Positions 3,109 through 21,832 of a DNA stretch of 23,926 nucleotides are shown here, piece by piece. The translations under genes were made by a program, and so were the position numbers. Source of the stretch: a virus; the IMG/VR virus record IMGVR_UViG_3300007735_000509, positions 1 to 23,926 of that record; one strand, written 5' to 3'. Within the stretch, counting starts at the first letter, position 1. Each line of letters opens with the position of its first letter. Under the pieces are notes generated by a model. That model did no database searches. It saw nothing but the letters and a program-made list of their open reading frames with translations, and was not told the DNA's origin.

Positions 3109-4098
3109 CTAATAAATTTTACCGCCTATTATTTGCTTGTTATCAACTGTAAAGTTACCTGTTGAATCAATAGTGATGTGAGCAAATCCTAAATTCCATT
3201 CGTTAAAAGGTAAATAATCAGGGTTTAATTCACACAAACACCCTACGCTCCATGTTCCGGTTACTGATTTATCAATATTTGTTTTAAGTCCTGATTGTGT
3301 TTTGTGTTTATCCCCTGCAATTACATTATCCCCTGCCAGAAGCCATAATGTTCTTGCCACATTTATTCCACCGCCTCCCTTATATTCGTTACCGTGAATC
3401 ATGTGAAGTTTACCGGCTATTACTAACTGTTTATTCTCTATAAATGTAACACCTTTTTCGCCCAACTTTAAAAGAACGTCTAATCTAAATTCATCCATCC
3501 CTAAACATACTGGAGCTTTCACCCTTAAAAACCTTTCCCATCTTACCTCATGATTCCCGAATTTATAAAATATTTTAGCCTTTGGGAACTCTCTTTTAAG
3601 TAGGTCAAGAAACAACCGCCCTTGCTCTAACTCATAACTAATATCTCTATTTTTAGGGTCTTGCTCGTGAAATGAACCTTTATAAATATCCAAAATATCC
3701 CCGTTAAGGTATATAGTATTGACTTGTTTTTGTTTTCCGTAATTTAAGGCTAATGTAAGCGCGTTAATATCATGGTATGGTAAATGTATATCCGATAGAA
3801 AAAGAATGTTATTTGATGCCTTTGGCAGTCTATATGGTTCAAATGGCTTTGCCTCCGTTGGTGGAAGTCCAAAAGGGTTCTCGCGTGTGAAGTTTGTTTT
3901 GTGTATTATCTCTTTTTTGGAAACGTTTGTGCCTTGTGCCCCTGTAAAATATCTTATCACGCTTCGCGCATCTTCAGCGTCCTTAAATAATAGCGGGTTA
4001 CTCTTAAATACAACTTGGGAAATTGTTTTTTTAGAAGATTTTGGAAAGTTAGATAGTGCCTCCTTAATTACTCGCGTTCTTTCTGATTCTTTTTTCAT
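3109..4098 (-). CDS. Calcineurin-like metallophosphoesterase
   Basis: A 329-residue protein with all five family motifs in order: D103-x-H105 (SDIHLPYHD), GDILD (133-137), GNHE (181-184), a lone His-Gly (HGN, 235-237), and a GDKH in place of the final GHxH (262-265). These residues hold a two-metal centre that hydrolyses phosphodiesters. Phage members may act on nucleic-acid ends or nucleotides, but the substrate cannot be told here. The first 55 or so residues resemble the small helix-turn-helix-like N-terminal region seen on many phage homologues (FKDAEDARSVIRYFTG). The leader cgaaaaaaccaacc precedes the ATG. Confidence 0.88.
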   Translation of the reverse strand: MKKESERTRVIKEALSNFPKSSKKTISQVVFKSNPLLFKDAEDARSVIRYFTGAQGTNVSKKEIIHKTNFTRENPFGLPPTEAKPFEPYRLPKASNNILFLSDIHLPYHDINALTLALNYGKQKQVNTIYLNGDILDIYKGSFHEQDPKNRDISYELEQGRLFLDLLKREFPKAKIFYKFGNHEVRWERFLRVKAPVCLGMDEFRLDVLLKLGEKGVTFIENKQLVIAGKLHMIHGNEYKGGGGINVARTLWLLAGDNVIAGDKHKTQSGLKTNIDKSVTGTWSVGCLCELNPDYLPFNEWNLGFAHITIDSTGNFTVDNKQIIGGKIY

Positions 4099-4150
4099 GG
4101 TTGGTTTTTTCGTTCAGTAAAGCTATATATTGGATTAACGATTGAATTTG

Positions 4151-4270
4151 TCAACTTCTACCTTGCCGATTATAAGGCTTACTACTATCGTGCTTATTAT
4201 GTTTCTTCTTTGCGCGTCCTTTGCTTTTCTTAGGCTTTGGAGCATATAAGTTTACTTTACCTTGTGCCAT
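4151..4270 (-). CDS. Small basic ORF, 39 residues
   Basis: ATG at 4268-4270 to TGA at 4151-4153. The 39-residue product starts MAQGKVNLYAPKPKKSKGRA and is very rich in Lys, Arg and Ser. It is likely a small nucleic-acid-binding or disordered protein. Its ATG overlaps the TAA of the small lipoprotein gene by one base (TAATG), supporting translation. No homologue is recognised. Confidence 0.5.
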   Translation of the reverse strand: MAQGKVNLYAPKPKKSKGRAKKKHNKHDSSKPYNRQGRS

Positions 4271-4464
4271 TACTGTAAATCAATTTCGTTTACGTGCATT
4301 ATCCATGTAGTATCTCTAATCGCGCGAACTTTATATATTCCTTTGCCCTCGTATTTGATTAGTTCAACCTGTTCGCCATTGTATAGGCAAGTCCAACCGA
4401 TATGTTTGTTTACATTGCAAGAAATGTAACAAATAAAGAATATAAATGTTACAAAATATTTCAT
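4270..4464 (-). CDS. Small putative lipoprotein or secreted protein
   Basis: A 64-residue protein with a hydrophobic N-terminal stretch (KYFVTFIFFICYISC, residues 2-16). This looks like a signal sequence, with Cys16 as a possible lipidation site, although the residue three before the Cys is Tyr rather than a typical lipobox Leu/Val/Ile. The rest is a small hydrophilic beta-rich domain. Its start overlaps the end of the M15 peptidase gene by four bases, so it belongs to the lysis operon. It could be an outer-membrane lysis factor. Confidence 0.55.
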   Translation of the reverse strand: MKYFVTFIFFICYISCNVNKHIGWTCLYNGEQVELIKYEGKGIYKVRAIRDTTWIMHVNEIDLQ

Positions 4465-4925
4465 GCAGTAGTGTTATTATCTGGTATGTATTTAGTAACT
4501 CCATTTACTTTTACCGCCCGCAAACATTGCCTCCTATTTATTCCTACTGATGTATAACTAATGTGAACCCAATGTCCAAATTCTTGAATGAGTTGGTCGA
4601 ATTTAATCCCCGATTGTTTTATGTCAGTGTATAAATTTTCAACCGTTACAACAGGGCTACTAATATCAGCCGCTTGACCTTTTGTATGTTGGCTCGAATC
4701 AGCCCCGCCTATTGTGTTGTTCAATCTATCGCACCTGTAACCTGAAGATACTTTAATATATCCACCTCCCAATAAATCACGCACAGGCTCTAAAACATTA
4801 TCGCACAATTCTTTTAGGTTATCTTTAATTGAATCAGGAGGGCAGAATTGTTCATCAATGCTTAATCGAATAGCCGTTTGGCTCGAAAGCATTTCATCTA
4901 AAGTAAAGTGTTCTGATAAATTCAT
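4461..4925 (-). CDS. M15-family peptidase, probable endolysin
   Basis: A 154-residue single-domain peptidase of the M15A type, zinc enzymes that cleave D-Ala-containing cross-links or stem peptides in peptidoglycan. Visible motifs: SSGYRCDRLN (60-69), SQHTKGQAADI (78-88) giving ligands H80 and D87, and HWVHIS (118-123) giving the third zinc ligand H121. The protein lacks a signal peptide, so it needs a holin; two small membrane proteins encoded upstream (5488-5924) are candidates. A terminator-like hairpin (4936-4963) separates it from the upstream lipoprotein gene, so readthrough or a separate promoter must express it. Confidence 0.88.
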   Translation of the reverse strand: MNLSEHFTLDEMLSSQTAIRLSIDEQFCPPDSIKDNLKELCDNVLEPVRDLLGGGYIKVSSGYRCDRLNNTIGGADSSQHTKGQAADISSPVVTVENLYTDIKQSGIKFDQLIQEFGHWVHISYTSVGINRRQCLRAVKVNGVTKYIPDNNTTA

Positions 4926-4987: not shown

Positions 4988-5179
4988 TTATTTCTTTTGA
5001 GCTTTTTCGATTTGCGCCTTAACTACTTTCGCAAGGCTGTCGCATTTCAAACACCCATCAAATGAGCCGGTCTGCAAATCAACTGAAGTATATTTTACTT
5101 CGCAATGTTTCTGCACATCTTTTACAAATGAGCAAGAACTGATAAATACAGTAAGAAAGATAACGCATAATGTTTTCAT
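4988..5179 (-). CDS. Small lipoprotein, o-spanin candidate
   Basis: A 63-residue protein with a lipoprotein signal (MKTLCVIFLTVFISSC, lipobox ending at Cys16) and three further Cys. It ends in a helical, Lys-rich C-terminus. A small lipoprotein directly after a protein with an N-terminal hydrophobic segment and coiled-coil-like region is the arrangement of two-component spanins (Rz/Rz1), which fuse inner and outer membranes in Gram-negative hosts. The role is inferred from layout only; sequence similarity to known spanins is not evident. Confidence 0.55.
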   Translation of the reverse strand: MKTLCVIFLTVFISSCSFVKDVQKHCEVKYTSVDLQTGSFDGCLKCDSLAKVVKAQIEKAQKK

Positions 5180-5185
5180 GTTTAT

Positions 5186-5491
5186 TTATTTTAGTTTAAG
5201 TCCTCTTTTTTCTCTATTCGGGAACATCTGTTTTAATACCGTTCTGATTTCTTCCCTATCTTCGTTATCCAATAAATCAAACTTCAAAGCAACGTAAACA
5301 TCAACTGTAATTCTCGGATGCACGGACAAATATAATCTACTTTCTTCAATTATTCTATCCATCTCTCTTAACTCCAATCTTAACTCTTTTCTTTCTGCGT
5401 TTTTTTCCTGTATCTTTTCGGAAGGTGCAACTTTTGTTGAGAAAACAAATACGGCTTTGATGCTTTCAAATATTGCTGTTAGCCAATTCAT
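5186..5491 (-). CDS. Membrane-anchored coiled-coil protein, i-spanin candidate
   Basis: A 101-residue protein with a short hydrophobic N-terminus (WLTAIFESIKAVFVF, residues 3-17) and then a long charged helix (about 24-55, EKIQEKNAERKELRLELREM and onwards) consistent with a coiled coil. The end is a basic C-terminus. Its start overlaps the end of the upstream holin-like gene by four bases. Topology and position between holin-like genes and a small lipoprotein suggest an inner-membrane spanin. The hydrophobic segment is short for a full transmembrane helix, so it could also be peripheral. Confidence 0.5.
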   Translation of the reverse strand: MNWLTAIFESIKAVFVFSTKVAPSEKIQEKNAERKELRLELREMDRIIEESRLYLSVHPRITVDVYVALKFDLLDNEDREEIRTVLKQMFPNREKRGLKLK

Positions 5492-5715
5492 TTTTTCAAA
5501 TCTTTTAGAATCTTATAAATTGTAAGGATAGACGCACACGATGCAAACAACAATGAAACAAGTTGAAAGTATGGCAATATGTGAGCAACTGAATTATCTT
5601 GCACTATGCTTCCGATTAGGTGAGAGAAGATAACAAGCATCCAAGCAGTTGCCGAATCTAAAATGTAGCCTGCGTTATGGTTTAACGCATCTTGTAGGTG
5701 GAGTATTCTGTGCAT
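5488..5715 (-). CDS. Two-helix membrane protein, holin candidate
   Basis: A 75-residue protein with two likely membrane helices: about residues 22-40 (SATAWMLVIFSHLIGSIV) and 45-68 (HILPYFQLVSLLFASCASIL and onwards). It ends in the charged tail KDLKK, a typical holin feature. It overlaps the genes on both sides by one to four bases in a tight operon with the lysis genes. Holins share little sequence, so the assignment rests on size, topology and context. Confidence 0.55.
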   Translation of the reverse strand: MHRILHLQDALNHNAGYILDSATAWMLVIFSHLIGSIVQDNSVAHILPYFQLVSLLFASCASILTIYKILKDLKK

Positions 5716-5924
5716 TATGGTGTAGTTGATTCTATCATTAAGGAATCTACCAAACTTCGCAGAAACGAAGACGATAATTTAATAATCAATAGCAATGTTG
5801 ATTGGTCGGTATAACCTAAGATTAACAACAAAGCCATTACAAATGTTTCAGTGTTACCGTAAACCTTGTTGAAAATTCTATACCATTTTGGCGGTGGTGC
5901 AACTGCGTTTTTTAAAGCTTCCAT
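5715..5924 (-). CDS. Small membrane protein, holin-like
   Basis: A 69-residue protein with two hydrophobic segments, about 27-40 (TFVMALLLILGY) and 43-58 (STLLLIIKLSSSFL), after a basic Pro-rich N-terminus. It is the first of the overlapping chain of small membrane proteins leading into the lysis genes. It may be the holin itself or a holin partner. There is no sequence motif beyond topology. Confidence 0.5.
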   Translation of the reverse strand: MEALKNAVAPPPKWYRIFNKVYGNTETFVMALLLILGYTDQSTLLLIIKLSSSFLRSLVDSLMIESTTP

Positions 5925-5943: not shown

Positions 5944-6372
5944 TTACAATTTAATATCTACTATACTTACCACAAAAGTAGGATTGGTGAACAGTATTTG
6001 ATTCATTACCCTTTGGTGTATCCAGTAATCTAACTTATCAATTAAACTTTTACCCTGCAAAGCGTTAAAGTTAGTAATAGGTGCGCTTGCTAAAGTATCT
6101 GAATTAATAGTGTAAACTCGGTTTACCTGTGCTGATTGCTCTAAAGTCTTTTTCTTGTTTGTATAGCTTGCTTTGTTCTTATAGCCATCCATCAAAACGT
6201 CAATAGAATTTCCATCATAATTAAAAATATAAGTTAGTCGAAAGTAGGAAGTGTTATCCCCTATTTTGTAGGCAGAAGTATCGGTGGATGAAGTTAATTG
6301 CCCTGTTATCTGTAACCCTGCAAATGAGTTAAGAGATAGGAATAATGCTGAAATTAATAGTATCTTTTTCAT
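5944..6372 (-). CDS. Secreted protein of unknown function
   Basis: A 142-residue protein with a clear Sec signal peptide (KK at 2-3, hydrophobic core ILLISALFLSLNS, cleavage likely after A18). The mature part is beta-rich, with alternating polar and hydrophobic residues, and has no Cys and no recognised motif. It lies between the fibre-like protein, which also has a signal peptide, and the lysis membrane genes, three bases from the former. It may act in the periplasm or at the cell surface together with that protein. It is not recognisable by family. Confidence 0.65.
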   Translation of the reverse strand: MKKILLISALFLSLNSFAGLQITGQLTSSTDTSAYKIGDNTSYFRLTYIFNYDGNSIDVLMDGYKNKASYTNKKKTLEQSAQVNRVYTINSDTLASAPITNFNALQGKSLIDKLDYWIHQRVMNQILFTNPTFVVSIVDIKL

Positions 6373-6375
6373 AGT

Positions 6376-9096
6376 TTATTTTTGACTTTTTATTATCCAG
6401 TTTACGTTATTACTCACCAATACATAATTCTTTTTAGTAGCCAAACTCAATAGCAAAGTAGCGTTTCCATCTATGGTTTGGCTTGATGTTGTTGCTAATA
6501 CAACAAGTGTTGCTGAAACATTTTCAATATAGTATTCGCGTCCTGTTATACCTACTGCTGTTGGAAGTGTTACTGTATCTGTATTGGCTGTAAACCAAAC
6601 TCCATAATCAGTTGAAGTAAGTGTATAGTTTGCTGTTTTGCTTACATACTTTAAAGCAAGTGAACCGCTATCCTGTAAAGTAGAATTTGGGGCAGTTGTT
6701 CCAATGCCTGAAAAGTCAGAAAATATGTGACTTGTGCCATCTTCAGACTTAATGGCGAAACCTGTTTTATTAGCTACACCACCTCTTAATACTCCACCAA
6801 ATGACATTGAATTTGCACCCATTGATGCAGGCAAAGTTCCTGCCCCCATTGTTAGCATTTTTGTTCCCGCATTTACAGCATTTCCATTAAATATTGCACC
6901 ATTTAGACTTGCCCCAGAAAAAAATAGCCAATTAGTAGATTGTGCAGAACTATACAAATCAAAATTGGTAGAAGAATTTACCGTAAATGCTCTATTTGCA
7001 TTTCCTATATCATACCATCCATTAATTCCAGATATTATCCCAGCAGGTGCTTGTATCGCATAATTAGTAGTTGCACCAGATGCAGTAAAGTATCCCGCTA
7101 CGTTAGTAGATGTAGTGCCTGTATTAGTTACTGATGAATACATTCCATAGGTAGTTTTACCACTTGTGCTATTCGCCCCACTCATAGCCGCCTCAATTCC
7201 TTTTCCTGCGTTTACTGTTGTTGATGTGGAAGTTGCTTTAACTAAACTACCCGTTGTTAAACTACTTGAATTAATTGCCAATCCTATTCCTGTGGTTAAG
7301 CTATTAAAATCAAACTGCCCTGCTGTTGTAGTAGATGCTGTTGAAACAAAATGAAGCGGAACTGTTGGTGATTGTGTGCCGATTCCTAATCGTCCGTTGC
7401 TATCAATTACCATTCTGTAAGTTGCATTTGTCTTAAACCTCATACTAACATTATCATCAGTTCCAATATAATTAGTAGCCGAAGTTAATCCTGTATTACC
7501 TGTTGTTAGCCATGCACTACCGCTGAATGTTCCTGTTGCTCCTGTTGAACCCGTTGAACCAGTTGAACCTGTTGCGCCTGTTGCACCTGTGGCTCCGGTA
7601 GAACCTGTGCTTCCAGTTGCCCCTGTTGCACCGGTTGCGCCTGTTATTGTTGGTATAGTATCCCACCTTGCTAAGCCGTACGCATTGCTTGTTAAAACCT
7701 TTCCACTTCCCTGCGTTCCATCCGTAATTTGAATAGTGCCGTTTATTAGTAAAGCAGTATCTACAATTACAGGATAAAAAGTAGTTCCATTGTTATACGA
7801 AGAACTTAAATGCCCACCCTGCCAATTTAATTCATATCCTACTGCACAATTCAAACTAATACCCCTATTGCCTCCTGTGCTATTATCAAAAGTTCCTTGT
7901 GAAATATTTTGTAAACCTGTTCCAAAATAGATATGAGAACCGCTATCCATAGTTCCACCAGCTAAAGGTAAATATAAACCCGAACCTACTGTATCATATT
8001 GCCAGCTTGCCAGACCGTTTGCATCGCTTGTCAATATTTTGCCTGCCCCTTGTGTGCCGTCAACAATCTGCACCTTTCCGTTAAGCGTTACAGAATCATA
8101 GTAACTTGTAATTTCTTTAATTTCATTGTCAAATTGCATAATTACATTATCAGAAGTATCTTTAAATCGTATTTTATTTGCTGTATTTAAAATGATACTT
8201 CCACCTCCACTAACTATTCGTAAATTTTGATTATCCGTTGTTCCTATAAAATTAGTAGCAGGGTTAGTGCCGGAGTTGCCTGTTAAACCCCAAGCGTAAT
8301 TTGTAACCGTATCTATTTTTAAGCGTCCATCATTATCAACTCCTATTGTTTTATCCCCGAACCCTGCCAAATTCATTACGCTCAATCCACCACTTTTTAA
8401 TTCCAATGATTTTGCTCCACCATAGTCATAATAATTCATAACCGAATCACCTACAACGCCATCCATCAGAACATTACCGTTCCAATTAGCCATATAGATT
8501 CCATTATTATAAGTAACGAACCAATCTGCACCACCCGGTGCATAGATTTCATTGTAATTTACTCCATCACCTTCGGCAAAGTAACCACCACCAAAACGCA
8601 TAAACCTATTTGCCTCCAAATTCAAATCTCCATGCTGTAAATCTAACTTCCATGCAGGGTATTTAGTGCCAATTCCAACATTAAAATTAGAATCAATTGG
8701 ATACAATTTACTTTGCGAAGTATCCCATAATGTAACTGATGAAGCAGTTGACCTTGTGAAACAATCCCAATTTGCACCATTCCAATAACAAGGTTTCAAA
8801 CTATCTAAATTGAATACTCCTAAACCTACCGTTGAAGCGCTTATAGCATTCATTTGAGCAGTTGTAACTCTTGGTAATAAGAATCCTTTGGTTGTTGATG
8901 ATGCTTCTAAAACAGCATCAGAATTTAAATTATAACCTCCGACAATCAATCCACCTTGAGTATTTATCTTAACAGGTTTAACATGAAGAACAGTATCTGG
9001 AAAATACTTCTTGCCGGGTTCATTAATATATCCTGTTGGAACTTGCCCAAAACAAAATGAAGAAATAAGTAAGAAAAGTATTGTGAGTTTATTCAT
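6376..9096 (-). CDS. Large fibre-like protein with signal peptide and collagen-like repeats
   Basis: A 906-residue protein. I chose the ATG at 9096, nine codons inside the longest ORF, because it gives a clean signal peptide (MNKLTILFLLISSFCFG, cut before Gln18) and only an eight-base overlap with the upstream gene. Segments such as SSTTKGFLLPRVTTAQMN (about 64-81), GIGTKYP (about 141) and GIGTQSP (about 569) are typical of Bacteroidota fibre and surface proteins. A collagen-like Gly-X-Thr/Ser tract occupies about 484-522, and a module DGTQGxGKxLTS is duplicated before it. The C-terminus is beta-rich. It is likely a tail fibre or surface adhesin; the signal peptide is unusual for a virion protein. 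Confidence 0.75.
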   Translation of the reverse strand: MNKLTILFLLISSFCFGQVPTGYINEPGKKYFPDTVLHVKPVKINTQGGLIVGGYNLNSDAVLEASSTTKGFLLPRVTTAQMNAISASTVGLGVFNLDSLKPCYWNGANWDCFTRSTASSVTLWDTSQSKLYPIDSNFNVGIGTKYPAWKLDLQHGDLNLEANRFMRFGGGYFAEGDGVNYNEIYAPGGADWFVTYNNGIYMANWNGNVLMDGVVGDSVMNYYDYGGAKSLELKSGGLSVMNLAGFGDKTIGVDNDGRLKIDTVTNYAWGLTGNSGTNPATNFIGTTDNQNLRIVSGGGSIILNTANKIRFKDTSDNVIMQFDNEIKEITSYYDSVTLNGKVQIVDGTQGAGKILTSDANGLASWQYDTVGSGLYLPLAGGTMDSGSHIYFGTGLQNISQGTFDNSTGGNRGISLNCAVGYELNWQGGHLSSSYNNGTTFYPVIVDTALLINGTIQITDGTQGSGKVLTSNAYGLARWDTIPTITGATGATGATGSTGSTGATGATGATGSTGSTGSTGATGTFSGSAWLTTGNTGLTSATNYIGTDDNVSMRFKTNATYRMVIDSNGRLGIGTQSPTVPLHFVSTASTTTAGQFDFNSLTTGIGLAINSSSLTTGSLVKATSTSTTVNAGKGIEAAMSGANSTSGKTTYGMYSSVTNTGTTSTNVAGYFTASGATTNYAIQAPAGIISGINGWYDIGNANRAFTVNSSTNFDLYSSAQSTNWLFFSGASLNGAIFNGNAVNAGTKMLTMGAGTLPASMGANSMSFGGVLRGGVANKTGFAIKSEDGTSHIFSDFSGIGTTAPNSTLQDSGSLALKYVSKTANYTLTSTDYGVWFTANTDTVTLPTAVGITGREYYIENVSATLVVLATTSSQTIDGNATLLLSLATKKNYVLVSNNVNWIIKSQK
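7531..7645 (-). repeat. Collagen-like triplet repeat coding tract
   Basis: About 12-13 Gly-Ala-Thr / Gly-Ser-Thr triplets encoded in tandem nine-base units, within the fibre-like gene. Such tracts form trimeric triple helices in phage fibres and vary in number by recombination. Thr/Ser in the third position are possible O-glycosylation sites. Confidence 0.85.
7663..7740 (-). repeat. Duplicated fibre module, copy 2
   Basis: Encodes IQITDGTQGSGKVLTSNAYG followed by LARW. It is a diverged copy of the segment at 8001-8078 (VQIVDGTQGAGKILTSDANG followed by LASW). The two copies lie about 340 bases apart in the same frame, showing internal duplication of the fibre gene. Confidence 0.75.
8001..8078 (-). 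repeat. Duplicated fibre module, copy 1
   Basis: Partner of the repeat at 7663-7740. Both modules precede a segment of the form WxxTGNxGxxxATNFIGT followed by residues like DNQNLRI or DNVSMRF, so the duplication extends beyond the core. Confidence 0.7.
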
Positions 9097-9925
9097 AAAA
9101 GATAACAATATATTCTCCGCCATTTATATCTATTCCGTTAATAGTAAATGTTATTCCATCCCATGAATGAAAGCCTGGAGTTAAAACAGAACCATCCATA
9201 TTAACCGCAATAACATCGGTCATATTCGATAATCCACTTACATCGGAACTTGTATAAGATGTTTTACCAGCTGTTGTATAAAAAAATATTGGTGGCTTAC
9301 CAAAGTTAGCGCACTCATTAACCATTTGGCAGAATGACTTTGCCGCATAATCAAAAATGAAACTACTATCTGTGCAAGGTTCACCCGCAAAGCATTGCTC
9401 ATCGCCTGTTATACTAACTTCAAAATCTAAATAAAGTAGTATATCCGCATCCTTTAATGAATTTGGTAGTGTGGTTTGTGAACTCCAAACATTAGCCTTA
9501 TCAAAATTGGTATCGGTAACTTTTATTATAATATTAAACGCATTTAGCGCACTTTCCAAATCTTCCTGTAACCCGCTAAGATTTGCCTTTATGCCTTGCG
9601 CGATACTTTGCGAATAAGAACTACAATTTACATTCTCTAAACCTTGTGAGTAAACAACCGCCCTTAATGGATAAACTTCCGTAACCTGTTCTAAGGTAGC
9701 GATAACAGGATGCTCTACGGTAGTTCGGGTGGAGTTCCCATTGGTGAGAATATAAACGAGCGAAGAATAATTATCAAAGTTTACGTGCGTTAATTCAGAA
9801 CCCTGATATACCGCAATTACTTTTTCGCCATCCACGCTTACAGTTGAGCCCAATCCCAATACCTTTTTAATATAGGATAGAGATTCAAACTTTGCTATTA
9901 AGAATTGTAGTATTACAGATAACAT
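9089..9925 (-). CDS. Hypothetical virion-associated protein, 278 residues
   Basis: The family is not recognised. The N-terminal 25 residues are hydrophobic and amphipathic (MLSVILQFLIAKFESLSYIK). The middle looks like a mixed alpha/beta domain, with a central region containing CFAGEPCTDSSF (about 184-195) and two more Cys near 209-215. The C-terminal 45 residues are beta-rich and Gly-rich. It is encoded between a putative tail-completion protein (one-base overlap at its start) and the fibre-like protein (eight-base overlap at its end), so a tail or fibre-attachment role is likely but unproven. Confidence 0.6.
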   Translation of the reverse strand: MLSVILQFLIAKFESLSYIKKVLGLGSTVSVDGEKVIAVYQGSELTHVNFDNYSSLVYILTNGNSTRTTVEHPVIATLEQVTEVYPLRAVVYSQGLENVNCSSYSQSIAQGIKANLSGLQEDLESALNAFNIIIKVTDTNFDKANVWSSQTTLPNSLKDADILLYLDFEVSITGDEQCFAGEPCTDSSFIFDYAAKSFCQMVNECANFGKPPIFFYTTAGKTSYTSSDVSGLSNMTDVIAVNMDGSVLTPGFHSWDGITFTINGIDINGGEYIVIFYE

Positions 9926-10458
9926 CAGCTATTGAAATAGTTTATTAATCTCTTTTGAATCTCCTTTGCGAAATACTCTTTTTCTTCTTTTGTATGGCTA
10001 AATGTTTCTTTGCCATATCTATCTATTAATCCACTTACTTTCTTTTCATTCAATCCAACCACTTTTATTGAAACCGTATCGCCTTGTGTATATAATTTCA
10101 AACCTCTCCTTAAATCACCCCTATATGTTAGGTTTACAAAATTGCTTTCTAATCCTTGTATGCTTTTTAATTGCCTATAACCGCCAGGTAAATACATAGA
10201 CTTTCTTTTCTTCCCTGTTTTACCAACACCATTAAAACTTCCCGCATTCCTAAAAGCCGATTTACTCGCATACATTTCTTTTGATGAATAAGAGCCTATT
10301 TGAGAACCACTCCCATCTACTCCACTATCAAATAATCTATTTGTAAATAATTGTAGCATCTTAGTAGCAACAGGGAAAGTAACAATCTCAACTACCTTCA
10401 AAGAACGAATCTTATTATCTATCTTCTTTTGAAATTGCTCCGGTGTAAGCGTAGCCAT
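9925..10458 (-). CDS. Putative head-tail or tail completion protein
   Basis: A 177-residue basic protein. The segment GKTGKKRKSMYLPGGYRQLK (about residues 79-98), followed by LTYRGDLRRGLKL, resembles phage virion morphogenesis / tail completion proteins (Mu gpG or HK97 gp10 type), which carry 'L.G.LR.S' segments. The C-terminus (EEKEYFAKEIQKRLINYF) is helical. It lies five bases after the connector-like gene and overlaps the next gene by one base. Similarity is only by pattern, so the family call is tentative. Confidence 0.5.
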   Translation of the reverse strand: MATLTPEQFQKKIDNKIRSLKVVEIVTFPVATKMLQLFTNRLFDSGVDGSGSQIGSYSSKEMYASKSAFRNAGSFNGVGKTGKKRKSMYLPGGYRQLKSIQGLESNFVNLTYRGDLRRGLKLYTQGDTVSIKVVGLNEKKVSGLIDRYGKETFSHTKEEKEYFAKEIQKRLINYFNS

Positions 10459-11487: not shown

Positions 11488-12564
11488 TTAGGTATTTGTA
11501 ACCTGGAATTGTAAAACTCCGTTTGTTTTGTAAAGTCTGTCTGCACTGTTGTAAATATCACTTGGCAATCCAACTACCTTAAACGCAGTAGATACCTTGA
11601 TGTTTATTTGCTCTGCACAAGTTTTCCAAACTTTGTAGTTAAATGTAACGCCTGATTTCGGGTCGGTAATAGTATTGATAACCAAAGCATCATCCGCATT
11701 CTGAACCAATGGGTCGTTATAACGGTTGTATTGAAGCAAGAATAAAGAACCAGCATCAACTGCAAGGAATTTAGTTCCTGTTCCGCTACCGTTCAAAGCT
11801 GTATGAGTTTTGATAGATGGCAAGAAAGCCGCCTGATTCTGATTCACATACTTTACGAAATCCATACCGCCATCAGAGAAGTTGCCCAAACCGATAAGAT
11901 AATTCCAGTATCTCCAAATTGCAGAATAACCGAAAACATAAGGGATGCCGGTAAACCCGCTATTCATAGTAGAAAACATGATTTCCTGCAATGCTTCTGG
12001 ATTCCATTTGCCGCCATCAACTGCCGCAGGGAATTTAGTTGCAATAGTTTTCAGTGTTTTACCTGTCAATCCTGTTTCACCGTTATCTTCTGCGAACCAT
12101 CCGAACAATGTTGCCATTTGCGTAGCTACAACGGTTTGCATCTTGCGAACACAAACATCAATTTGAGCATTTACGCGCTGTGCAAAATAATCAGGGTTAG
12201 ATTTGCAGATTCTTGCAAGGTCGCTGATTTCGATAGTTTCTACTGATTCAACACCTGTTGCAGGGTCAATCACATAGTTAGTAGAAAGCATACCAGCTTC
12301 ATTACCGGCTGTGCAAGCTGTTGTAAGTGTTGTTGAAGTTGTTGATTCTGTCAAACGAGGGGCATAAACTACCTGAACCGTTTTAATCTTCGTTCCCCCA
12401 TCATCAACTACGCGCTGTTCAAGAATGCGCGAAGTGTTTACTTGTGATGTTAGGAATTGAATTTCCGGAGCAGGTTCGTTAGGGTTCTTCCCTTTATCTG
12501 TGAAATCGTTTAATTGTAATTGCACCGTAGGGCAATCAATAAGAGTTGATATGTTATATGACAT
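11488..12564 (-). CDS. Major capsid protein (probable)
   Basis: A 358-residue protein directly downstream of a scaffold-like gene, the usual place for the major capsid protein. Composition and length suit an HK97-fold capsid. The N-terminal arm is extended and polar. A long helix rich in Asp/Arg/Gln follows (about 115-150, ISDLARICKSNPDYFAQRVN and onwards), then alternating strands and turns to the C-terminus. It is the only gene checked in the virion block with a strong Shine-Dalgarno (AAGGAGG, nine bases before the ATG), fitting very high expression. That site is also part of the RNA structure at 12564-12690. There is no protease domain, so maturation cleavage is not implied. Confidence 0.8.
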   Translation of the reverse strand: MSYNISTLIDCPTVQLQLNDFTDKGKNPNEPAPEIQFLTSQVNTSRILEQRVVDDGGTKIKTVQVVYAPRLTESTTSTTLTTACTAGNEAGMLSTNYVIDPATGVESVETIEISDLARICKSNPDYFAQRVNAQIDVCVRKMQTVVATQMATLFGWFAEDNGETGLTGKTLKTIATKFPAAVDGGKWNPEALQEIMFSTMNSGFTGIPYVFGYSAIWRYWNYLIGLGNFSDGGMDFVKYVNQNQAAFLPSIKTHTALNGSGTGTKFLAVDAGSLFLLQYNRYNDPLVQNADDALVINTITDPKSGVTFNYKVWKTCAEQINIKVSTAFKVVGLPSDIYNSADRLYKTNGVLQFQVTNT

Positions 12565-13943: not shown

Positions 13944-14204
13944 ATGCTATTAGATATGTCGGGTAATAAGTTACCATCAAGTGAAAAGAAAACAGTTCTT
14001 TGCACCGTTACATTTTTATACACTATGAAAGGTGTTATTAATGCAAAGCATCCAAAGAAAGAAACTGTATTCGCATGGATAGAAGAAGGTTCAACAAATA
14101 AAGATTGTGTATTTTTATTTGACCCTACCGGAGTTGAAAAGTCTAATTGTGTAATAAATGAAGTATTGGTATTCCCAATCCCAACAGTAACGCATGAAGA
14201 TTAG
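13944..14204 (+). CDS. Hypothetical protein heading the carbohydrate module
   Basis: An 86-residue protein, not recognised. It begins MLLDMSGNKLPSSEKKTVLC and is likely beta-rich with short strands separated by polar turns (KETVFAWIEEGSTNKDCVFL). There is no signal peptide or membrane helix. It is read from a TAnnTTTG box immediately upstream and its last 11 bases overlap the GT2 gene, so it is the first cistron of the module. It might be a regulator or an adaptor, but nothing shows this. Confidence 0.6.
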   Translation: MLLDMSGNKLPSSEKKTVLCTVTFLYTMKGVINAKHPKKETVFAWIEEGSTNKDCVFLFDPTGVEKSNCVINEVLVFPIPTVTHED

Positions 14205-14898
14205 TCTTTGCATTACCACATACAACCGTAACGCTTACTTATTCAAATCATTTGAACAGGTGTTGTTTGATGATAGGATAGATGAAATTATAATAGTAGA
14301 TGATTGTAGTGAACTTCAATTATATAAATTGATTGAGGCGCGTTGCTCTAAACTTCCAAAAGTTAGATTGTTTAGAAACGAATCTAATGTAGGATGTTAT
14401 GAGAATAAGAAAATAGCAGTAAGCAAAGCATCGAATGAGTTTGTAATAATTTTTGATAGCGATAATGTTATTGATACTAATTATCTTGATAAGTTATATA
14501 GTGTCGAATGGAGTTCAAATACACTTTACGCTCCCGACTTCGCTAAACCTGTTTTTGATTATAGAAAGTTTGCGGGAATTACTTTTAATAAATTGAATGT
14601 TGCTAAATATTGTTTCACGCCTGGATTCGATTGCTTAATGAATACTATGAATTACTTTATTCACAAAGATTCGTTTGTTCAAATATGGCAACAGAAACAT
14701 GATATTAAAGGTGCTGATTCTATCTATATGAATTACCTTTGGATGTTAGCGGGTAATAGTATTCATTGTTTAAGCGGGTTAGAATACTTCCATCGGGTTA
14801 ATGCAGAAGATAAATCCGAACATGGGAGCAATTTTATTGAGTTCGCCAATGAATCAAACCCAAAAGAGATTGAAAGGTTAATAAGTTTAATGCGATGA
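14194..14898 (+). CDS. Family 2 glycosyltransferase
   Basis: A 234-residue GT-A fold enzyme that transfers a sugar from a nucleotide-sugar donor. Motifs in order: TTYNR (8-12), IIIVDDCS (32-39), the nucleotide-binding loop NESNVG (62-67), and the metal-binding FDSDN (87-91, DxD). The C-terminal half carries aromatic residues typical of acceptor binding and shows no membrane helix, so it is probably cytosolic. Donor and acceptor cannot be read from the sequence. It overlaps the gene before it by 11 bases, and its TGA overlaps the ATG of a 25-residue ORF. Confidence 0.88.
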   Translation: MKISLCITTYNRNAYLFKSFEQVLFDDRIDEIIIVDDCSELQLYKLIEARCSKLPKVRLFRNESNVGCYENKKIAVSKASNEFVIIFDSDNVIDTNYLDKLYSVEWSSNTLYAPDFAKPVFDYRKFAGITFNKLNVAKYCFTPGFDCLMNTMNYFIHKDSFVQIWQQKHDIKGADSIYMNYLWMLAGNSIHCLSGLEYFHRVNAEDKSEHGSNFIEFANESNPKEIERLISLMR

Positions 14899-14972
14899 AT
14901 TATACTTTACTACGTGGAAGATTATACCCATGTGAAACAATAGAATTTAAAGAATGGTTGAACCAACACTAA
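14895..14972 (+). CDS. Mini-ORF, 25 residues
   Basis: ATG at 14895 overlaps the GT2 stop (ATGA), and TAA at 14970 lies inside the GT11 gene. It fills the only gap in the module. The product starts MNYTLLRGRLYPCETIEFKE. It may be a coupling ORF that keeps ribosomes loaded between the two enzymes, or chance. Confidence 0.35.
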   Translation: MNYTLLRGRLYPCETIEFKEWLNQH

Positions 14973-15700
14973 TAGGGCGATTAGGTAACTTCATGTTTGA
15001 GGTTGCAACTGCTTACGCATATTCTTTACGGCATGGAATGGAATACAACGTGAACCAGAATGAAGATTGCAACAATTACATTAATAGATTCTTTCCTAAG
15101 ATTGAAACGAAAAAAGTATTAATTAATTTCGATAAGTGGAAAGAACCAACACACGCATATACTGAAATACCAAAGTTTGAGAATGTAAAGATTCTTGAAT
15201 ACTTCCAAAGTGAAAAGTATTTTAAGGATTACCGAAAAGAAGTAATGGAGTTGTTTGATATTCCATATTCACTTAAAAAAGGATATACTTCAATCCATGT
15301 AAGGCGTGGCGATTATCTTATTTATTTTAATTCGTTCCCTCCGGTTGATGAAAGATATTTGAGTAATGCTATGCGATTAATGGCGCGTAATGGATTTAAA
15401 AAGTTTCTTGTTTTCAGCGATGATATAAAATGGTGCAAAGACAATTTGAACCCTGCTAAATATCCCGAATACGAATTTGAATATTCGGAGGGTAAAAATG
15501 AATACGAAGATTTAATGATTGGTAGTTGGTGTGAGCATAACATTATAAGCAATTCTACTTTTAGTTGGTGGCAAGCATGGTTAAATCAGAACCCAAACAA
15601 GATTGTAGTAAGCCCATCAAAGTTTAATTGGTTTGGCAAAAGAGTTAAATTATCAACTGAAGATATAATACCCGAATCATGGGAGCAAATTAATTTCTAA
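14954..15700 (+). CDS. GT11-family (alpha-1,2-fucosyltransferase-like) glycosyltransferase
   Basis: A 248-residue GT-B enzyme of family GT11, which normally moves L-fucose from GDP-L-fucose to galactose. Family motifs: GRLGNFMFEVATAYAYSLRH (8-27), HVRRGDY (115-121, GDP-binding Arg), FSDD (154-157) and NSTFSWWQAWL (200-210). The GDP-mannose 3,5-epimerase encoded four genes downstream would supply GDP-L-galactose, the 6-hydroxy analogue of GDP-L-fucose, so L-galactose is a plausible donor sugar. The ATG is chosen because the family starts shortly before GRLGN. No signal peptide or membrane segment. Confidence 0.88.
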   Translation: MVEPTLIGRLGNFMFEVATAYAYSLRHGMEYNVNQNEDCNNYINRFFPKIETKKVLINFDKWKEPTHAYTEIPKFENVKILEYFQSEKYFKDYRKEVMELFDIPYSLKKGYTSIHVRRGDYLIYFNSFPPVDERYLSNAMRLMARNGFKKFLVFSDDIKWCKDNLNPAKYPEYEFEYSEGKNEYEDLMIGSWCEHNIISNSTFSWWQAWLNQNPNKIVVSPSKFNWFGKRVKLSTEDIIPESWEQINF

Positions 15701-15701
15701 T

Positions 15702-16403
15702 ATGGGCTACTTACTAAACGGAGTTAATACAGGCGGGATACCTTTCTATTTAGTTGATGCAATAACAAATGAAGTTCATGTAGAAACATTTATTGAAACT
15801 GGAACTGCTGGTGGCGATAGCATAAAAGAGGCGGCTAAAAAGTTTAAGGCTTGCCATACAATAGAACTAATTGAAAATAGAGCCATACAAGACCATTCTA
15901 TAAAAAATATTACATGGCATACCGGCAACAGTATTGATATACTGCCTGAATTGGTGGAGATTATATACTATAAAAAAAGAAGCCCTCAAGATTATAAATA
16001 TACGTTGTTTTGGTTGGATGCTCACTATTGCGACCCTTTACCAAACACAAGCGGAATAAAAGAATGTTTCTTATTGGAAGAACTTGAAATAATAAGCCGA
16101 ATAAATAATGATGCAATCATACTAATTGATGATGCGCGTTTGTTTTTGGGGCAAGTTCCCGCACCTAACAACCCGCAAGATTATCCATGTATTCAAGATA
16201 TATTTGTATTGCTTAAAAACAAATTTCCACATAATTATTCTACTATTGTAGATGATTATATAATTAGCATACCAGATAGAATTAGACATACATTAGACAA
16301 AGAATGGCGGTCAAGGTTTAATATTCGTTATCCATCATCGGAAGATAAATTGAAATCAGAAGTAAAGAATGTTTATAACGCTTTGCTAAATTATATTAAA
16401 TGA
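15702..16403 (+). CDS. Class I SAM-dependent methyltransferase-like protein
   Basis: A 233-residue protein with a Rossmann-type start: FIETGTAGGDSIKEAAKKF (30-48, glycine-rich SAM loop), then TIELIEN (53-59, acidic end of strand 2). FWLDAHYCDP (103-112) and IILIDDAR (139-146) follow. Such enzymes in glycan loci methylate sugars. The acceptor here is unknown, and some relatives act on other small molecules. It starts one base after the GT11 stop and overlaps the GT25 start (ATGA), so it is part of the same operon. Confidence 0.75.
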   Translation: MGYLLNGVNTGGIPFYLVDAITNEVHVETFIETGTAGGDSIKEAAKKFKACHTIELIENRAIQDHSIKNITWHTGNSIDILPELVEIIYYKKRSPQDYKYTLFWLDAHYCDPLPNTSGIKECFLLEELEIISRINNDAIILIDDARLFLGQVPAPNNPQDYPCIQDIFVLLKNKFPHNYSTIVDDYIISIPDRIRHTLDKEWRSRFNIRYPSSEDKLKSEVKNVYNALLNYIK

Positions 16404-17152
16404 GTTTACTGTCAAACGCTTACTGCTCTTTTATAAATTTAGACCATCGGATAGACAGATTAGAACACATGAATAATCAACTTTCGCGTATTGGGTTGAA
16501 AGCGGTTAAAACAAGGGGTTTATTGCCGCAAGAAGTAAACGAGCCAAAAGAAAAGCTAAATGTAATGCAACAAAGAACGCCAGGTGCGATAGGTTGCCAT
16601 TATTCTCAAGTCAGTATTATTGAAACCGCTTATTCATTATGTAAGTCAGCTTTAGTAATGGAGGATGATTTGGTTTTCTGTGAAGATTTTAACGAAAGAA
16701 TGGAGATAGTTGAAGCCTTTTTAAACACTCACGAGTGGGATGTTTTTTGGTTAGGTGGGACTTATCATATACCGGCTGAATGGCATTCATTAAAGCACAA
16801 TTCAGATTTGCAAATGTGCGAATGTAAGTTGGGTGTTGACCATGAAGAAACTGATAACAAATATATCCGAAGAACTTATGGCATTTGGTCAACCTATGGC
16901 TACATTGTAAACTATAAAAGTATCCACAAAATATTAGAGTTGTTAGATATGAATGTTTATAGAAGCATGGGTATTGATTGGCTTTTTATACTTTTACAAC
17001 CTCAATTAAAAACATATTGCTTTAATCCTGGCATGGTAAAACAATTCGATAATGTTAGCGATATTGGCAGAATGGGAGATGGTTCACCTGCCATAACTCA
17101 CTTTAGCGGGTTTAAAAATTTAGGTTCACATTGGTTTCAAAATAAATTATAA
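16400..17152 (+). CDS. Family 25 glycosyltransferase
   Basis: A 250-residue protein of the GT25 family (LPS beta-1,4-galactosyltransferase LgtB/LpsA type and collagen galactosyltransferases). Motifs: INLDHRIDRLEHM (12-24), TPGAIGCHYSQVSI (60-73) and the metal-binding ALVMEDDLVF (84-93). Members usually transfer galactose or a related sugar. It lacks the C-terminal retention signals of eukaryotic enzymes. It sits between the two methyltransferase genes, overlapping the first by four bases. The co-occurrence with a collagen-like fibre gene is noted, but that tract has no Lys. Confidence 0.87.
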   Translation: MSLLSNAYCSFINLDHRIDRLEHMNNQLSRIGLKAVKTRGLLPQEVNEPKEKLNVMQQRTPGAIGCHYSQVSIIETAYSLCKSALVMEDDLVFCEDFNERMEIVEAFLNTHEWDVFWLGGTYHIPAEWHSLKHNSDLQMCECKLGVDHEETDNKYIRRTYGIWSTYGYIVNYKSIHKILELLDMNVYRSMGIDWLFILLQPQLKTYCFNPGMVKQFDNVSDIGRMGDGSPAITHFSGFKNLGSHWFQNKL

Positions 17153-17154
17153 TT

Positions 17155-17793
17155 ATGCTAATACCGCTATCAAAACTAATTCAGAAACACAGAATACAGC
17201 CTAAGGGAATTATTCATATTGGAGCATCTTCTGGTCAAGAGGCAAAAGACTATTTCGATAACGGTATAGAAAATGTAATATTCTTTGAAGCTATCCCTGC
17301 CGTTTACGATAAGTTGGTTAGAAACCTAAACTACTACCCGCGTATGATTGCGGTAAATGAATGTATAGGAGATGAAGATGGTAAGAAAATGACTTTTAAT
17401 ATAAGCAATAATGAGGCGCAAAGTAGTTCGTTACTTGAATTAGACTACCATAAAACAGACCATCCCGAAGTTTACTTCTCACATACTATTCCGGTTGTAA
17501 CTAAGCGAATTGATACATGGTTAAAAGAACATCAACTTTCATTAACAGATTATGACTTTTTAAACATTGATTTGCAGGGTGCGGAGTTAATGGCATTAAA
17601 AGGTATTGGCGAAGAATTAAAGCACGTTAAATACGCTTATATTGAAGTAAACAAGAAACACGAATATAAAGACTGCCCTTTGTTGGAAGATATTGATGCT
17701 TTTATGTGGTTGTTTGACTTTGAAAGGGTTCAATTAGAATGGTGTGGTGGGTTTAGTTGGGGAGATGCGTTTTATCTTAAAAAAGAAATATAA
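17155..17793 (+). CDS. FkbM-family methyltransferase
   Basis: A 212-residue SAM-dependent O-methyltransferase of the FkbM type, often found in glycan and natural-product clusters. It shows a family-like glycine-rich loop IIHIGASSGQEAKDYF (19-34), FFEAIP (43-48) and a Ser-rich segment AQSSSLLEL (88-96). The late motif FLNIDLQGAELMALKG (about 135-150) carries the acidic residue that commonly holds the substrate or metal. It probably methylates a sugar hydroxyl. It starts two bases after GT25 and ends directly at the epimerase start. Confidence 0.85.
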   Translation: MLIPLSKLIQKHRIQPKGIIHIGASSGQEAKDYFDNGIENVIFFEAIPAVYDKLVRNLNYYPRMIAVNECIGDEDGKKMTFNISNNEAQSSSLLELDYHKTDHPEVYFSHTIPVVTKRIDTWLKEHQLSLTDYDFLNIDLQGAELMALKGIGEELKHVKYAYIEVNKKHEYKDCPLLEDIDAFMWLFDFERVQLEWCGGFSWGDAFYLKKEI

Positions 17794-18753
17794 ATGAAAA
17801 CAGCTTTAATCTTGGGCGCGGGCGGGTTTATTGGTAGCCACTTAGTAACCCGATTAAAAAAAGAGGGCTATTCTTTTGTTCGCGGGGCTGATTTAAAATA
17901 TCCAGACTTCAGCGAAAGTAATGCAGACGAATTTATAATAGCCGATTTGCGTAACTATTTGGAATGCGAAGAACTATTTTCTATTTATAAGTTTGATGAA
18001 GTTTATCAGTTGGCGGCTGATATGGGCGGTGCGGGATATATCTTTACAGGAGAACATGATGCCGATGTAATGCACAATAGCGCACAAATCAATTTAAACA
18101 TAGCTAAACTTTGTGTTGAATATAGCGTTGGTAAAATATTCTATTCTTCATCGGCTTGTATGTATCCGCAAGAGATACAAAGAATAAGCAACAACACCGG
18201 ATTAAAAGAATCGGATGCCTACCCCGCAAACCCTGACAGCGAATACGGATGGGAAAAGCTATTTAGTGAGAGACTTTATTTATCCTTTGCGCGTAACTAC
18301 GGATTGAATGTAAGGATTGCAAGGTTTCACAATATCTTCGGAGTTGATGGAACTTATAAAGGAGGAAAAGAAAAAGCCCCTGCCGCGATGTGTAGAAAAG
18401 TAATTGAGGCGAATAATGAAATAGAAGTTTGGGGCGATGGTTTACAAACGCGCTCATTCCTTTATATTGACGAATGTATTGAGGGTGTTAGAAGATTAAT
18501 GGAAAGCGATGTAACCGAACCAGTAAACATTGGTAGCGATGAAATGGTTTCTATAAACGAACTCGCTAAAATGGTTATTGCAATAAGCGGGAAAGATATT
18601 CAGATTAAGAATGTCGAAAGTAATGCGTTAGGCGTTAGGGGGAGAAACTCTGATAATGAATTTATCTATTCTCAATTAGGGTGGAAGCCAAACTACCCAC
18701 TTCAAAAAGGTTTAGAGAAAACTTATGAATGGATTTGTAAACAACTTTTATGA
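17794..18753 (+). CDS. GDP-mannose 3,5-epimerase homologue
   Basis: A 319-residue short-chain dehydrogenase-type protein. It resembles plant GDP-mannose 3,5-epimerase, which converts GDP-D-mannose to GDP-L-galactose and GDP-L-gulose using NAD. Key features: GAGGFIGSH (8-16, NAD loop), SSSACMYP with catalytic Cys122, YGWEK (Y151, K155), GGKEKAPAAMCRK with catalytic Lys194, and WGDGLQTRSFLYIDEC (213-228). Also present are NIGSDEMVSINE (245-256) and GVRGRNSDNE (280-289). The preceding ADMGGAGYI (75-83) also matches the epimerase. All catalytic residues recognised are intact. Ordinary sugar-nucleotide epimerases lack the GGxEKAPAA stretch. Confidence 0.85.
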   Translation: MKTALILGAGGFIGSHLVTRLKKEGYSFVRGADLKYPDFSESNADEFIIADLRNYLECEELFSIYKFDEVYQLAADMGGAGYIFTGEHDADVMHNSAQINLNIAKLCVEYSVGKIFYSSSACMYPQEIQRISNNTGLKESDAYPANPDSEYGWEKLFSERLYLSFARNYGLNVRIARFHNIFGVDGTYKGGKEKAPAAMCRKVIEANNEIEVWGDGLQTRSFLYIDECIEGVRRLMESDVTEPVNIGSDEMVSINELAKMVIAISGKDIQIKNVESNALGVRGRNSDNEFIYSQLGWKPNYPLQKGLEKTYEWICKQLL

Positions 18754-19909: not shown

Positions 19910-20040
19910 ATTGAACTAAGCAACTCATCTATTTTATCGCCTATTGATTTTGCAAGTGCCTTATCTCCGCTTTCTTCTGCTCTTGTTCTTGCCAATGCTA
20001 ACTGTTGTATTGCCAAAGGAATCTTACCTACACCACTATC
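19906..20040 (-). pseudogene. Out-of-frame C-terminus of the portal gene
   Basis: After the 12-G run the other frame reads 44 sense codons (DSGVGKIPLAIQQLALARTR and onwards) to TGA at 19906-19908, overlapping the MuF ATG. The sequence is helical, charged and plausible as a portal C-terminal tail. It joins the portal frame if one G is removed or skipped. Without this, the portal stops at 20036-20038 and leaves an empty gap of 126 bases, which is out of style for this tightly packed operon. Confidence 0.7.
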
Positions 20041-21832
20041 CCCCCCCCCCCGCAATATCTTTCATTATATTACCCGCACTATTCGCACCGGCAGACAAAG
20101 TAGCTTCATCCTGTTTTGCACGTTCAACTAACTTCTTATCTATCTCCGGTAAAGTCAATTCCATAAACGCAGCATTACTTTCAATCATTTCATTAACATA
20201 ACGCTGGAAATTAACGTGAAGCAATATCTGCCATTTAGCCACGTTGCCATTGGTTTGTAGTATAGTTATATCAGCCGTTTCTTTAACGAACAAAACATCG
20301 CTATACGCGGCTATTTCTGCCATCATTGAAACCGTTTGCGGGAACTCCTGTTCAAATAGTTGTAAGGTAAATTCAGTTAATGCTAAATCTGATAACCCTG
20401 CTTTCTTTGCCTCCCCTAATCTTGCCGTGATTTCATCAGTAGAAATTAAATCAAATGTAGTTGGTGGCTTTACTTTTATTGGCGATTCCTTACCGTATCT
20501 TACCTCATAAGCCGCATTTAAGAACTGTTGAAACAAAATAAACAACTCATTCGATATTGATAACATCAAAATATATTGTTCATCTCTATCTATCTTAGAC
20601 TTTGTAGCAGTTGGGTCATTCAACCCCTTACTATTCCCTGTTGCACCAACCTCAATATTTAAGAATAAAAAGGCATTCTCTAAATACTTTTCAATTACTT
20701 CTTCATTGTCTTTTATAATAGCCCCATCTGGAGCAACAAAAGAAACGCCTGGAAAGGCAACAGAGTTTTTATCTACGTCATTTGTAGCCGTTGGCAATTC
20801 GTGAACGTAATCCCTAAAAGGTGAAAACTTAACACTACCAGTTCCACCGCAAGTTGAACAATTAGACGCGCCTCCATCATTATAAACCTTGCCATTACTA
20901 CAATCTTTATTTGTGCATAATTGGTCATAATAAACCCTAATAGGGTAGCTTACTTTATTTCTTACACTCTTATTTGTAGAGTGAATTATTACCGCCTCAT
21001 TTAAGTAAGGTAAAGCGGGTGCGAAATATGATTCGTAGTAGGTTTCATCCTGTATAACATCTTCAGGAGTTCCCTTTAATTTCCATACAGGCAAATAACC
21101 TAAAGCATGATTATAGTAAACTGATAATTCAAATTGCCAATCTACCTTTTTGCCTACTTGAGCTATCCTGTAAATGTTTTCATTATCGTATAAGTAAAGA
21201 ACCAACCCTACTTTCTCTTTCCTTCCACCATACTCAACTAAACTCTTTTCTTCACTTAAACAAAGTGCGAAATCATTACTTTCAAACATTAGCAAATCAT
21301 CAGAATCATACACAGTAGCGAATGGTTCAAGTGCCTCCGTATCATCTATTACAAGTTCACCGTTTGCATCTTCTCTTACCGGCAAATCAAAATCTAACGC
21401 CAATACTCCGTTTGGTTCGCTAATCTTTTGCTCCGTTACAATGCTTTTAAAGAAACTTCTAACATCATTACCCATTGGGAAGTTTTCTAAAAAATACTTC
21501 TTAGCATCTTCATCTACCCAATCAATAGAATAGTTCTGTTCTGACCATACTCTATTTAAAGTTCCTAATGCTTTCTTCCAGTAAGGCTTTGTAATAGGTT
21601 GAAAAGAACGCCTGCGATATTCTCTTTCTTCATCCGTTTCGCCTGGAAAGTTTGCGCCAATTAATTTATTAGGGAAATCACCGCATGAATGCACTTCTAT
21701 TTCATCCGCTTGCTTACAAGCCTCCCGATATAATTCGCCCCAATCAGCCTTACCATCTTTTTTAGTAGCCGCAGATTTATACTTAGATGAAACCTCACTA
21801 AGTATTTTATTGAGTTGCTTTTCGTTTAACAT
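20036..21832 (-). CDS. Portal protein
   Basis: A 598-residue protein as read; the intact protein is probably about 640 residues. Portals form the dodecameric ring at the capsid vertex through which DNA is packaged. Supporting features: an N-terminal helical region with paired aromatics, a long body with many Asp/Tyr strands, and a C-terminal helical region (about 470-560). It is followed by a MuF gene. An insertion at residues 306-328 has four Cys (C306, C311, C325, C328, then GGTG) like a zinc ribbon or DnaJ-type knuckle. The frame ends at a run of 12 G (20040-20051); see the C-terminal fragment. Confidence 0.82.
   Translation of the reverse strand: MLNEKQLNKILSEVSSKYKSAATKKDGKADWGELYREACKQADEIEVHSCGDFPNKLIGANFPGETDEEREYRRRSFQPITKPYWKKALGTLNRVWSEQNYSIDWVDEDAKKYFLENFPMGNDVRSFFKSIVTEQKISEPNGVLALDFDLPVREDANGELVIDDTEALEPFATVYDSDDLLMFESNDFALCLSEEKSLVEYGGRKEKVGLVLYLYDNENIYRIAQVGKKVDWQFELSVYYNHALGYLPVWKLKGTPEDVIQDETYYESYFAPALPYLNEAVIIHSTNKSVRNKVSYPIRVYYDQLCTNKDCSNGKVYNDGGASNCSTCGGTGSVKFSPFRDYVHELPTATNDVDKNSVAFPGVSFVAPDGAIIKDNEEVIEKYLENAFLFLNIEVGATGNSKGLNDPTATKSKIDRDEQYILMLSISNELFILFQQFLNAAYEVRYGKESPIKVKPPTTFDLISTDEITARLGEAKKAGLSDLALTEFTLQLFEQEFPQTVSMMAEIAAYSDVLFVKETADITILQTNGNVAKWQILLHVNFQRYVNEMIESNAAFMELTLPEIDKKLVERAKQDEATLSAGANSAGNIMKDIAGGGG
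20040..20051 (-). repeat. Homopolymer run of 12 G in the portal gene
   Basis: Twelve consecutive G on the minus strand at the portal 3' end, by far the longest G/C run in this AT-rich window. A change of one base shifts the frame between an immediate TAG and the 44-codon extension. It is prone to replication slippage, transcriptional slippage and sequencing error. Confidence 0.9.

Follow-up and report, generated by a model that had tools for sequence, protein, structure and literature searches.

In ordinary phages, the host cytoplasm is where fibres are assembled. The locus described here raises the question of what a tail fibre-like protein is doing with a signal peptide (SP) for export, and whether such a protein ends up on the virion, on the surface of the host or on neither. 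The window, by which we mean the whole stretch of DNA analysed, corresponds to a virus record of IMG/VR, 23,926 bases in length, and the features on which the argument depends are collected in Table 1.

Table 1. Features of the fibre locus and its surroundings in the window
Feature	Position	Strand	Basis
SP-bearing tail fibre-like protein, 906 aa	6376..9096	minus	ORF and translation; PHROG tail fibre matches on the collagen part; relative L219
Signal peptide, codons 1-17, cleavage predicted before Gln18	9046..9096	minus	rule-based call
Eight-base stop/start overlap of fibre and upstream gene, ATGAATAA	9089..9096	minus	sequence; four-base overlap at the same place in L219
GFLPPRMT...YNGxxW domain, residues 52-113	8758..8943	minus	independent HMM, E 4.5e-18
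Collagen-like repeat, residues 486-522	7531..7641	minus	Pfam PF01391, E 1.3e-5, 25.3 bits (cut-off 27.2)
278-aa gene, no called signal peptide, candidate cytoplasmic fibre adaptor	9089..9925	minus	C-terminal match to the L219 upstream gene; putative role
Tail protein	9925..10458	minus	phrog_6195, E 6.3e-7
Portal protein	20036..21832	minus	phrog_7376, E 2.4e-25
Second secreted-type protein, 142 aa, signal MKKILLISALFLSLNSFA cut before G	5944..6372	minus	translation
Two small membrane proteins, holin-like by position	5488..5924	minus	translations; no family match
Small lipoprotein, lipobox SSC, spanin-like by position	4988..5179	minus	sequence
Endolysin, peptidase M15	4461..4925	minus	Pfam PF08291, E 5.4e-19; phrog_894 endolysin, E 5.1e-39

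The fibre gene and its signal peptide

The predicted fibre begins with MNKLTILFLLISSFCFG, and the sequence QVPTG follows the predicted cleavage site. This is a signal of the Sec/signal peptidase I type, with Lys in the n-region, a 9-residue hydrophobicity of 2.8 (Kyte-Doolittle), a small residue at position -1 and Gln at +1. It obeys the Q-rule of Bacteroidota; in Bacteroidetes, roughly 71% of the substrates of signal peptidase I have Gln at +1 (Bochtler 2018, PMC5837995; Szczesniak 2023, PMC10653852). When given random N-termini matching the fibre in composition, the rule-based caller used here let through 0.65%, or 0.03% if Gln at +1 was also required. The initial annotation had proposed a Bacteroidota signal peptide cut before Gln18, and this is borne out by every sequence feature of the Q-rule as scored by the caller, as well as by conservation of the signal in L219, a relative described below.

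An eight-base overlap with the upstream gene had been cited in support of the start codon. The overlap is present, and the L219 fibre starts at the same place within an ATGA overlap. Use of another in-frame ATG, at 9123, would lengthen the protein by nine residues (MAENILLSF) and leave a hydrophobic signal-like stretch in place; this alternative start is not conserved in L219 and was rejected. The fibre has no lipobox, Phe preceding Cys15, and no match to a T9SS C-terminal sorting domain was obtained with NCBIfam at E 0.1 or Pfam at E 0.05. With both elements absent, the T9SS cargo and lipoprotein routes were discarded.

The host-type motif and collagen-like repeats previously reported were both recovered. 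The window's version of the domain, GFLLPRVT...CYWNGANW, is matched by an HMM that was built from 109 viral copies, leaving out the window and all SP-bearing copies, and the Pfam Collagen match to the repeat falls slightly below the gathering score. The repeat, the PHROG tail fibre matches and a modular match to L219 mark the protein as a fibre by sequence type. Predicted structures were of low confidence, with a pLDDT of 31 for the fibre C-terminus and 34 for the product of the 278-aa gene. If periplasmic residence mattered for modification, the Bacteroidota O-glycosylation motif, D-S/T-A/L/V/I/M/T (PMC12871550), would be expected to be enriched in fibres with signals; no significant enrichment was observed in them (observed/expected 1.14, z 1.2) and periplasmic O-glycosylation is therefore unsupported.

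As is typical of tail fibres, the gene sits with tail genes and a lysis cassette, and the same order of tail genes, SP-bearing fibre and lysis genes recurs in L025, L088, L103 and L238. The gene following the fibre also encodes a protein of secreted type, as had been stated at the outset, and a small Q-rule SP gene occupies this position in L025 (1540-1899), L088 (3102-3500) and L238 (9315-9779). The small genes of the window and of L088 have no sequence similarity to each other, and it may be that the position is kept and homology perhaps not.

Other small secreted proteins were seen near virion genes. The contractile-tailed phage contig L059 encodes a 142-aa Q-rule secreted protein (3900-4328) between a putative capsid protein and the tail sheath, and L071 (763-1164) and L118 (1152-1553) each encode, upstream of head and tail genes, a 133-aa Q-rule-like secreted protein, the two N-termini being almost identical. 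The window also has a metallophosphoesterase gene (3109-4098; phrog_221, E 1e-31) in the neighbourhood of its endolysin; a similar-looking gene follows the L103 endolysin and another is annotated near the glycoside hydrolase of Cellulophaga phage phi14:2. Further along the window, eight plus-strand genes (13944-19013) break into the minus-strand structural genes. Several of their translations resemble glycosyltransferases, a methyltransferase and a nucleotide-sugar epimerase, in the manner of a glycan-modification island.

Signal-bearing proteins in phages and bacteria

The frequency of the signal-bearing form was estimated in a viral sample assembled through a GFLPPRMT motif scan and a domain-alignment scan, and composed of non-redundant ORFs with their N-terminus inside the contig. 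Among the matches listed, which comprise 138 viral ORFs with the GFLPPRMT domain, a Q-rule signal is present in 11 and absent from 127; the class is uncommon yet turns up repeatedly, in agreement with the original premise that fibres normally lack export signals. Lack of such a signal is a usual, if not strictly defining, trait of tail fibres, and the window fibre departs from it. In bacterial genomes, a signal accompanies the same domain in 72 of 88 cases and Gln stands at +1 in 59 of 88, the motif usually being located near residue 45, a short distance behind the signal. Since the domain occurs mostly in secreted proteins of bacteria, the N-terminus of the window fibre is host-like, and it is a minority of phages that use such an architecture. 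Tandem arrays of secreted GFLPPRMT-domain proteins are present in the bacterial genomes L145 and L207 (six and four motif ORFs per locus, respectively). The domain also extends beyond Bacteroidota, to records labelled Bdellovibrionaceae, Bdellovibrionales and Kaiserbacteria (L140, L143, L183, L198).

Evidence that proteins with signals of this kind may reach the virion comes from cultured marine Cellulophaga phages, for which virion membership by MS/MS was taken from GenBank record notes. Signals were called in 11 of 11 annotated structural proteins encoded by phi10:1 (gp091-094), phi19:1 (gp101-104) and phi18:3 (gp085-087), with Gln at +1 in 10 of them. The 42 other MS/MS virion proteins that were scored, among them those of two podoviruses, phi14:2 and phi4:1, yielded a single call, which is likely a false positive. 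The window fibre resembles distal tail proteins of phi10:1 and phi19:1 (Assiduviridae) and phi18:3 (Pachyviridae), which bear signals almost all with Gln at +1 and, in phi10:1 and phi19:1, are encoded after the tail hub genes. One of them, phi19:1 gp101, carries the window's domain right behind its signal (residues 34-69; E 2.7e-11 with the same HMM, for which no reversed or shuffled decoy scored below E 1). The Cellulophaga proteins differ from the window fibre in their bodies, which have no overall similarity to it, and their annotation is silent on signals. Several are annotated as pectate lyases. The lyase domain of the signal-bearing phi10:1 gp093 is 44-49% identical to tail proteins of phi14:2, phi17:2 and phi4:1; the lyase-domain tail proteins of phi14:2 and phi4:1 have no signal.

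Virion proteins with cleaved signal peptides are known from filamentous phages, which are not tailed phages and whose coat proteins pIII and pVIII are assembled during extrusion through the membrane. The Lom protein of phage lambda is exported and encoded in a tail operon; it is an outer-membrane protein and no fibre. For Bacteroidota phages, the lyase proteins of Ingeline and Nekkels were described as having 'signaling peptides'; these proteins belong to the same gene families as the SP-bearing Cellulophaga proteins, and the passages concerned list the signals and draw no conclusion on export or assembly (Bartlau 2022, PMC8776804). Phages of P. gingivalis have genes with Q-rule signals like that of the window fibre; these are of unknown function and were read as host-envelope modifiers, not as fibres (Matrishin 2023, PMC10367356). 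The collagen-type tail fibre gp52 of Cellulophaga phage phi18:1, also a Bacteroidota phage, was found among methylated virion proteins by MS (PMC13288928) and, unlike the window fibre, has no signal peptide. No description of Sec-exported virion tail fibres was found in the literature covered, which lacked most subscription papers, and the assembly route discussed below would be new if confirmed.

Conservation of the signal and exchange of fibre forms

No close relatives were detected in IMG/VR through the fibre, the 278-aa gene, the capsid candidate (11488-12564) or the portal, and searches of INPHARED with the fibre and portal gave no match. L219, an IMG/VR record, was recovered through the domain-alignment scan only, and an N-terminus scan added no others. 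Its head genes differ from those of the window, and its fibre is 82% identical to the window fibre over residues 1-112 and 67% over a segment of the body. Between the two, signal codons 8-17 differ by four synonymous and no non-synonymous changes, and codons 2-7 have changed in sequence and kept their character. Across the Cellulophaga gp093 family, pairwise differences in signal codons 2-18 amount to 62 synonymous and 0 non-synonymous. Such codon patterns indicate that the fibre signal is under purifying selection.

Conservation reaches into the upstream gene. Over its last 36 residues, the 278-aa gene product shares 50% identity (E 4e-9) with the C-terminus of a 111-aa gene product encoded directly upstream of the L219 fibre, the two genes being otherwise different. 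As a related gene end stands beside both fibres, this putative adaptor end and the SP-bearing fibre appear to travel together.

The relationship between SP-bearing and ordinary fibres can be seen in an uncultured lineage in which the fibre is flanked by two conserved genes, a tail gene of 145 aa and a short 'MKQIQPV' gene. Between these flanks, L103 has a fibre with a signal peptide. At the same locus, an SP-less fibre is placed directly in L016, L114 and L116, and an extra small gene followed by an SP-less fibre is found in L002, L007, L040, L242, L247, L287 and L290. The body of the L103 fibre itself has SP-less counterparts elsewhere, being ~45-70% identical over ~280-600 aa to fibres of contigs such as L049, L228 and L036. 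In L118, a gene for a stand-alone 125-aa protein separates the 145-aa gene from the SP-bearing fibre. The first 46 residues of this protein are 63-67% identical (E ~1e-15) to the N-terminal domain that forms part of the SP-less fibre in L114 and L116. On the simplest reading of these alignments, the cytoplasmic anchor and the fibre may be encoded as one protein or as two, and the exported version would be the two-part form. The body of the window fibre has no match among the fetched SP-less fibres beyond the shared domain, and the argument for a split between anchor and fibre therefore rests on relatives.

A possible route of assembly and its alternatives

On balance, we regard it as somewhat probable that the window fibre is exported, trimmed before Gln18 and docked on the virion. 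Translated directly after an adaptor-like tail gene, the fibre would cross the inner membrane through the host Sec pathway and be cleaved before Gln18 by signal peptidase I, and the host would be expected to cyclise Gln18 to pyroglutamate. The mature fibre would then wait in the periplasm and dock on the tail once lysis mixes the compartments. Export and cleavage in the window phage, the presence of its fibre in the virion and the role of the 278-aa gene as adaptor are what we infer from the comparisons above. Docking at or after lysis is more speculative, and is proposed as the simplest way in which a periplasmic fibre could meet a cytoplasmic particle. Tailspikes of P22 and long tail fibres of T4 can be added to particles in vitro, which makes late docking plausible. 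As to the benefit of export, avoidance of self-binding in the cytoplasm and folding in the periplasm are guesses.

A genuine Sec signal would also serve a protein that stays on the outer surface of the cell, where it would mask receptors or block superinfection as a moron-like element of the tail operon. Display on the host surface was among the functions initially suggested, and it accords with the predominance of secreted proteins among bacterial carriers of the domain (72/88) and with the view of P. gingivalis phage Q-rule genes as possible modifiers of the host outer membrane (Matrishin 2023, PMC10367356). It now appears unlikely, as neither a T9SS C-terminal domain nor a lipobox, nor any other outer-membrane route, was found in the fibre. 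The virion is favoured over the host surface because SP-bearing relatives in Cellulophaga phages are annotated by MS/MS as virion proteins, because fibres with and without a signal replace each other at one locus in the lineage of L103, where the alternatives are ordinary tail fibres, and because the anchor domain can be split off. Another destination for an exported fibre or depolymerase is the soluble phase: released at lysis, it could coat debris or degrade polysaccharide, thereby sparing new virions, and merely co-purify with particles. The pectate lyase annotation of several Cellulophaga proteins and a gene order suited to release at lysis would fit such a role, and exported proteins could indeed contaminate virion preparations. 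The locus and body held in common with virion-type fibres, together with the separate anchor domain of L118, nevertheless imply attachment, and we consider soluble release improbable.

The signal might also go unused, the fibre folding in the cytoplasm like those of ordinary phages and keeping its hydrophobic N-terminus, for instance as a virion anchor. The host-like architecture is compatible with a recently captured host gene that carries a relict signal. Selection on the signal, visible in the presence of Gln at +1 in nearly all cases and in the 62:0 ratio of synonymous to non-synonymous differences in gp093, makes this explanation unlikely, slightly more so than the two preceding ones. Retention of an uncut signal in the virion, which the initial annotation had allowed for, is likewise disfavoured: Gln is conserved where the new N-terminus is predicted, and the signal codons show purifying selection. 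Finally, a host-like N-terminal architecture could be explained by a host gene for a secreted protein that entered a phage accidentally or came into the contig through misassembly. L219, with its different head genes, has the same N-terminal module in translational overlap with an upstream gene whose end is related, and we judge chance capture or misassembly to be very improbable.

Export of the fibre followed by docking on the virion, the reading we favour, departs from how tail fibres are thought to assemble, and some Bacteroidota phages appear to proceed in this way. More tentatively, it is possible that a group of tailed phages of Bacteroidota assembles in two compartments, with heads and tails made in the cytoplasm and receptor-binding fibres sent through Sec to the periplasm, the two meeting only at lysis by way of a cytoplasmic anchor that has become a separate protein; fibre genes of this group would switch between exported and cytoplasmic forms through exchange of their N-termini. 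Genes for SP-bearing fibres could otherwise be dismissed as encoding host secreted proteins or as morons. If the proposed route is true, attachment of the fibre would come last in virion assembly and take place outside the cytoplasm, and the host signal peptidase and glutaminyl cyclase would act as virion-maturation enzymes. Pyroglutamate N-termini on the fibres and dependence of infectivity on signal peptidase are predicted, and the annotation and production of receptor-binding proteins of Bacteroidota phages would be affected.
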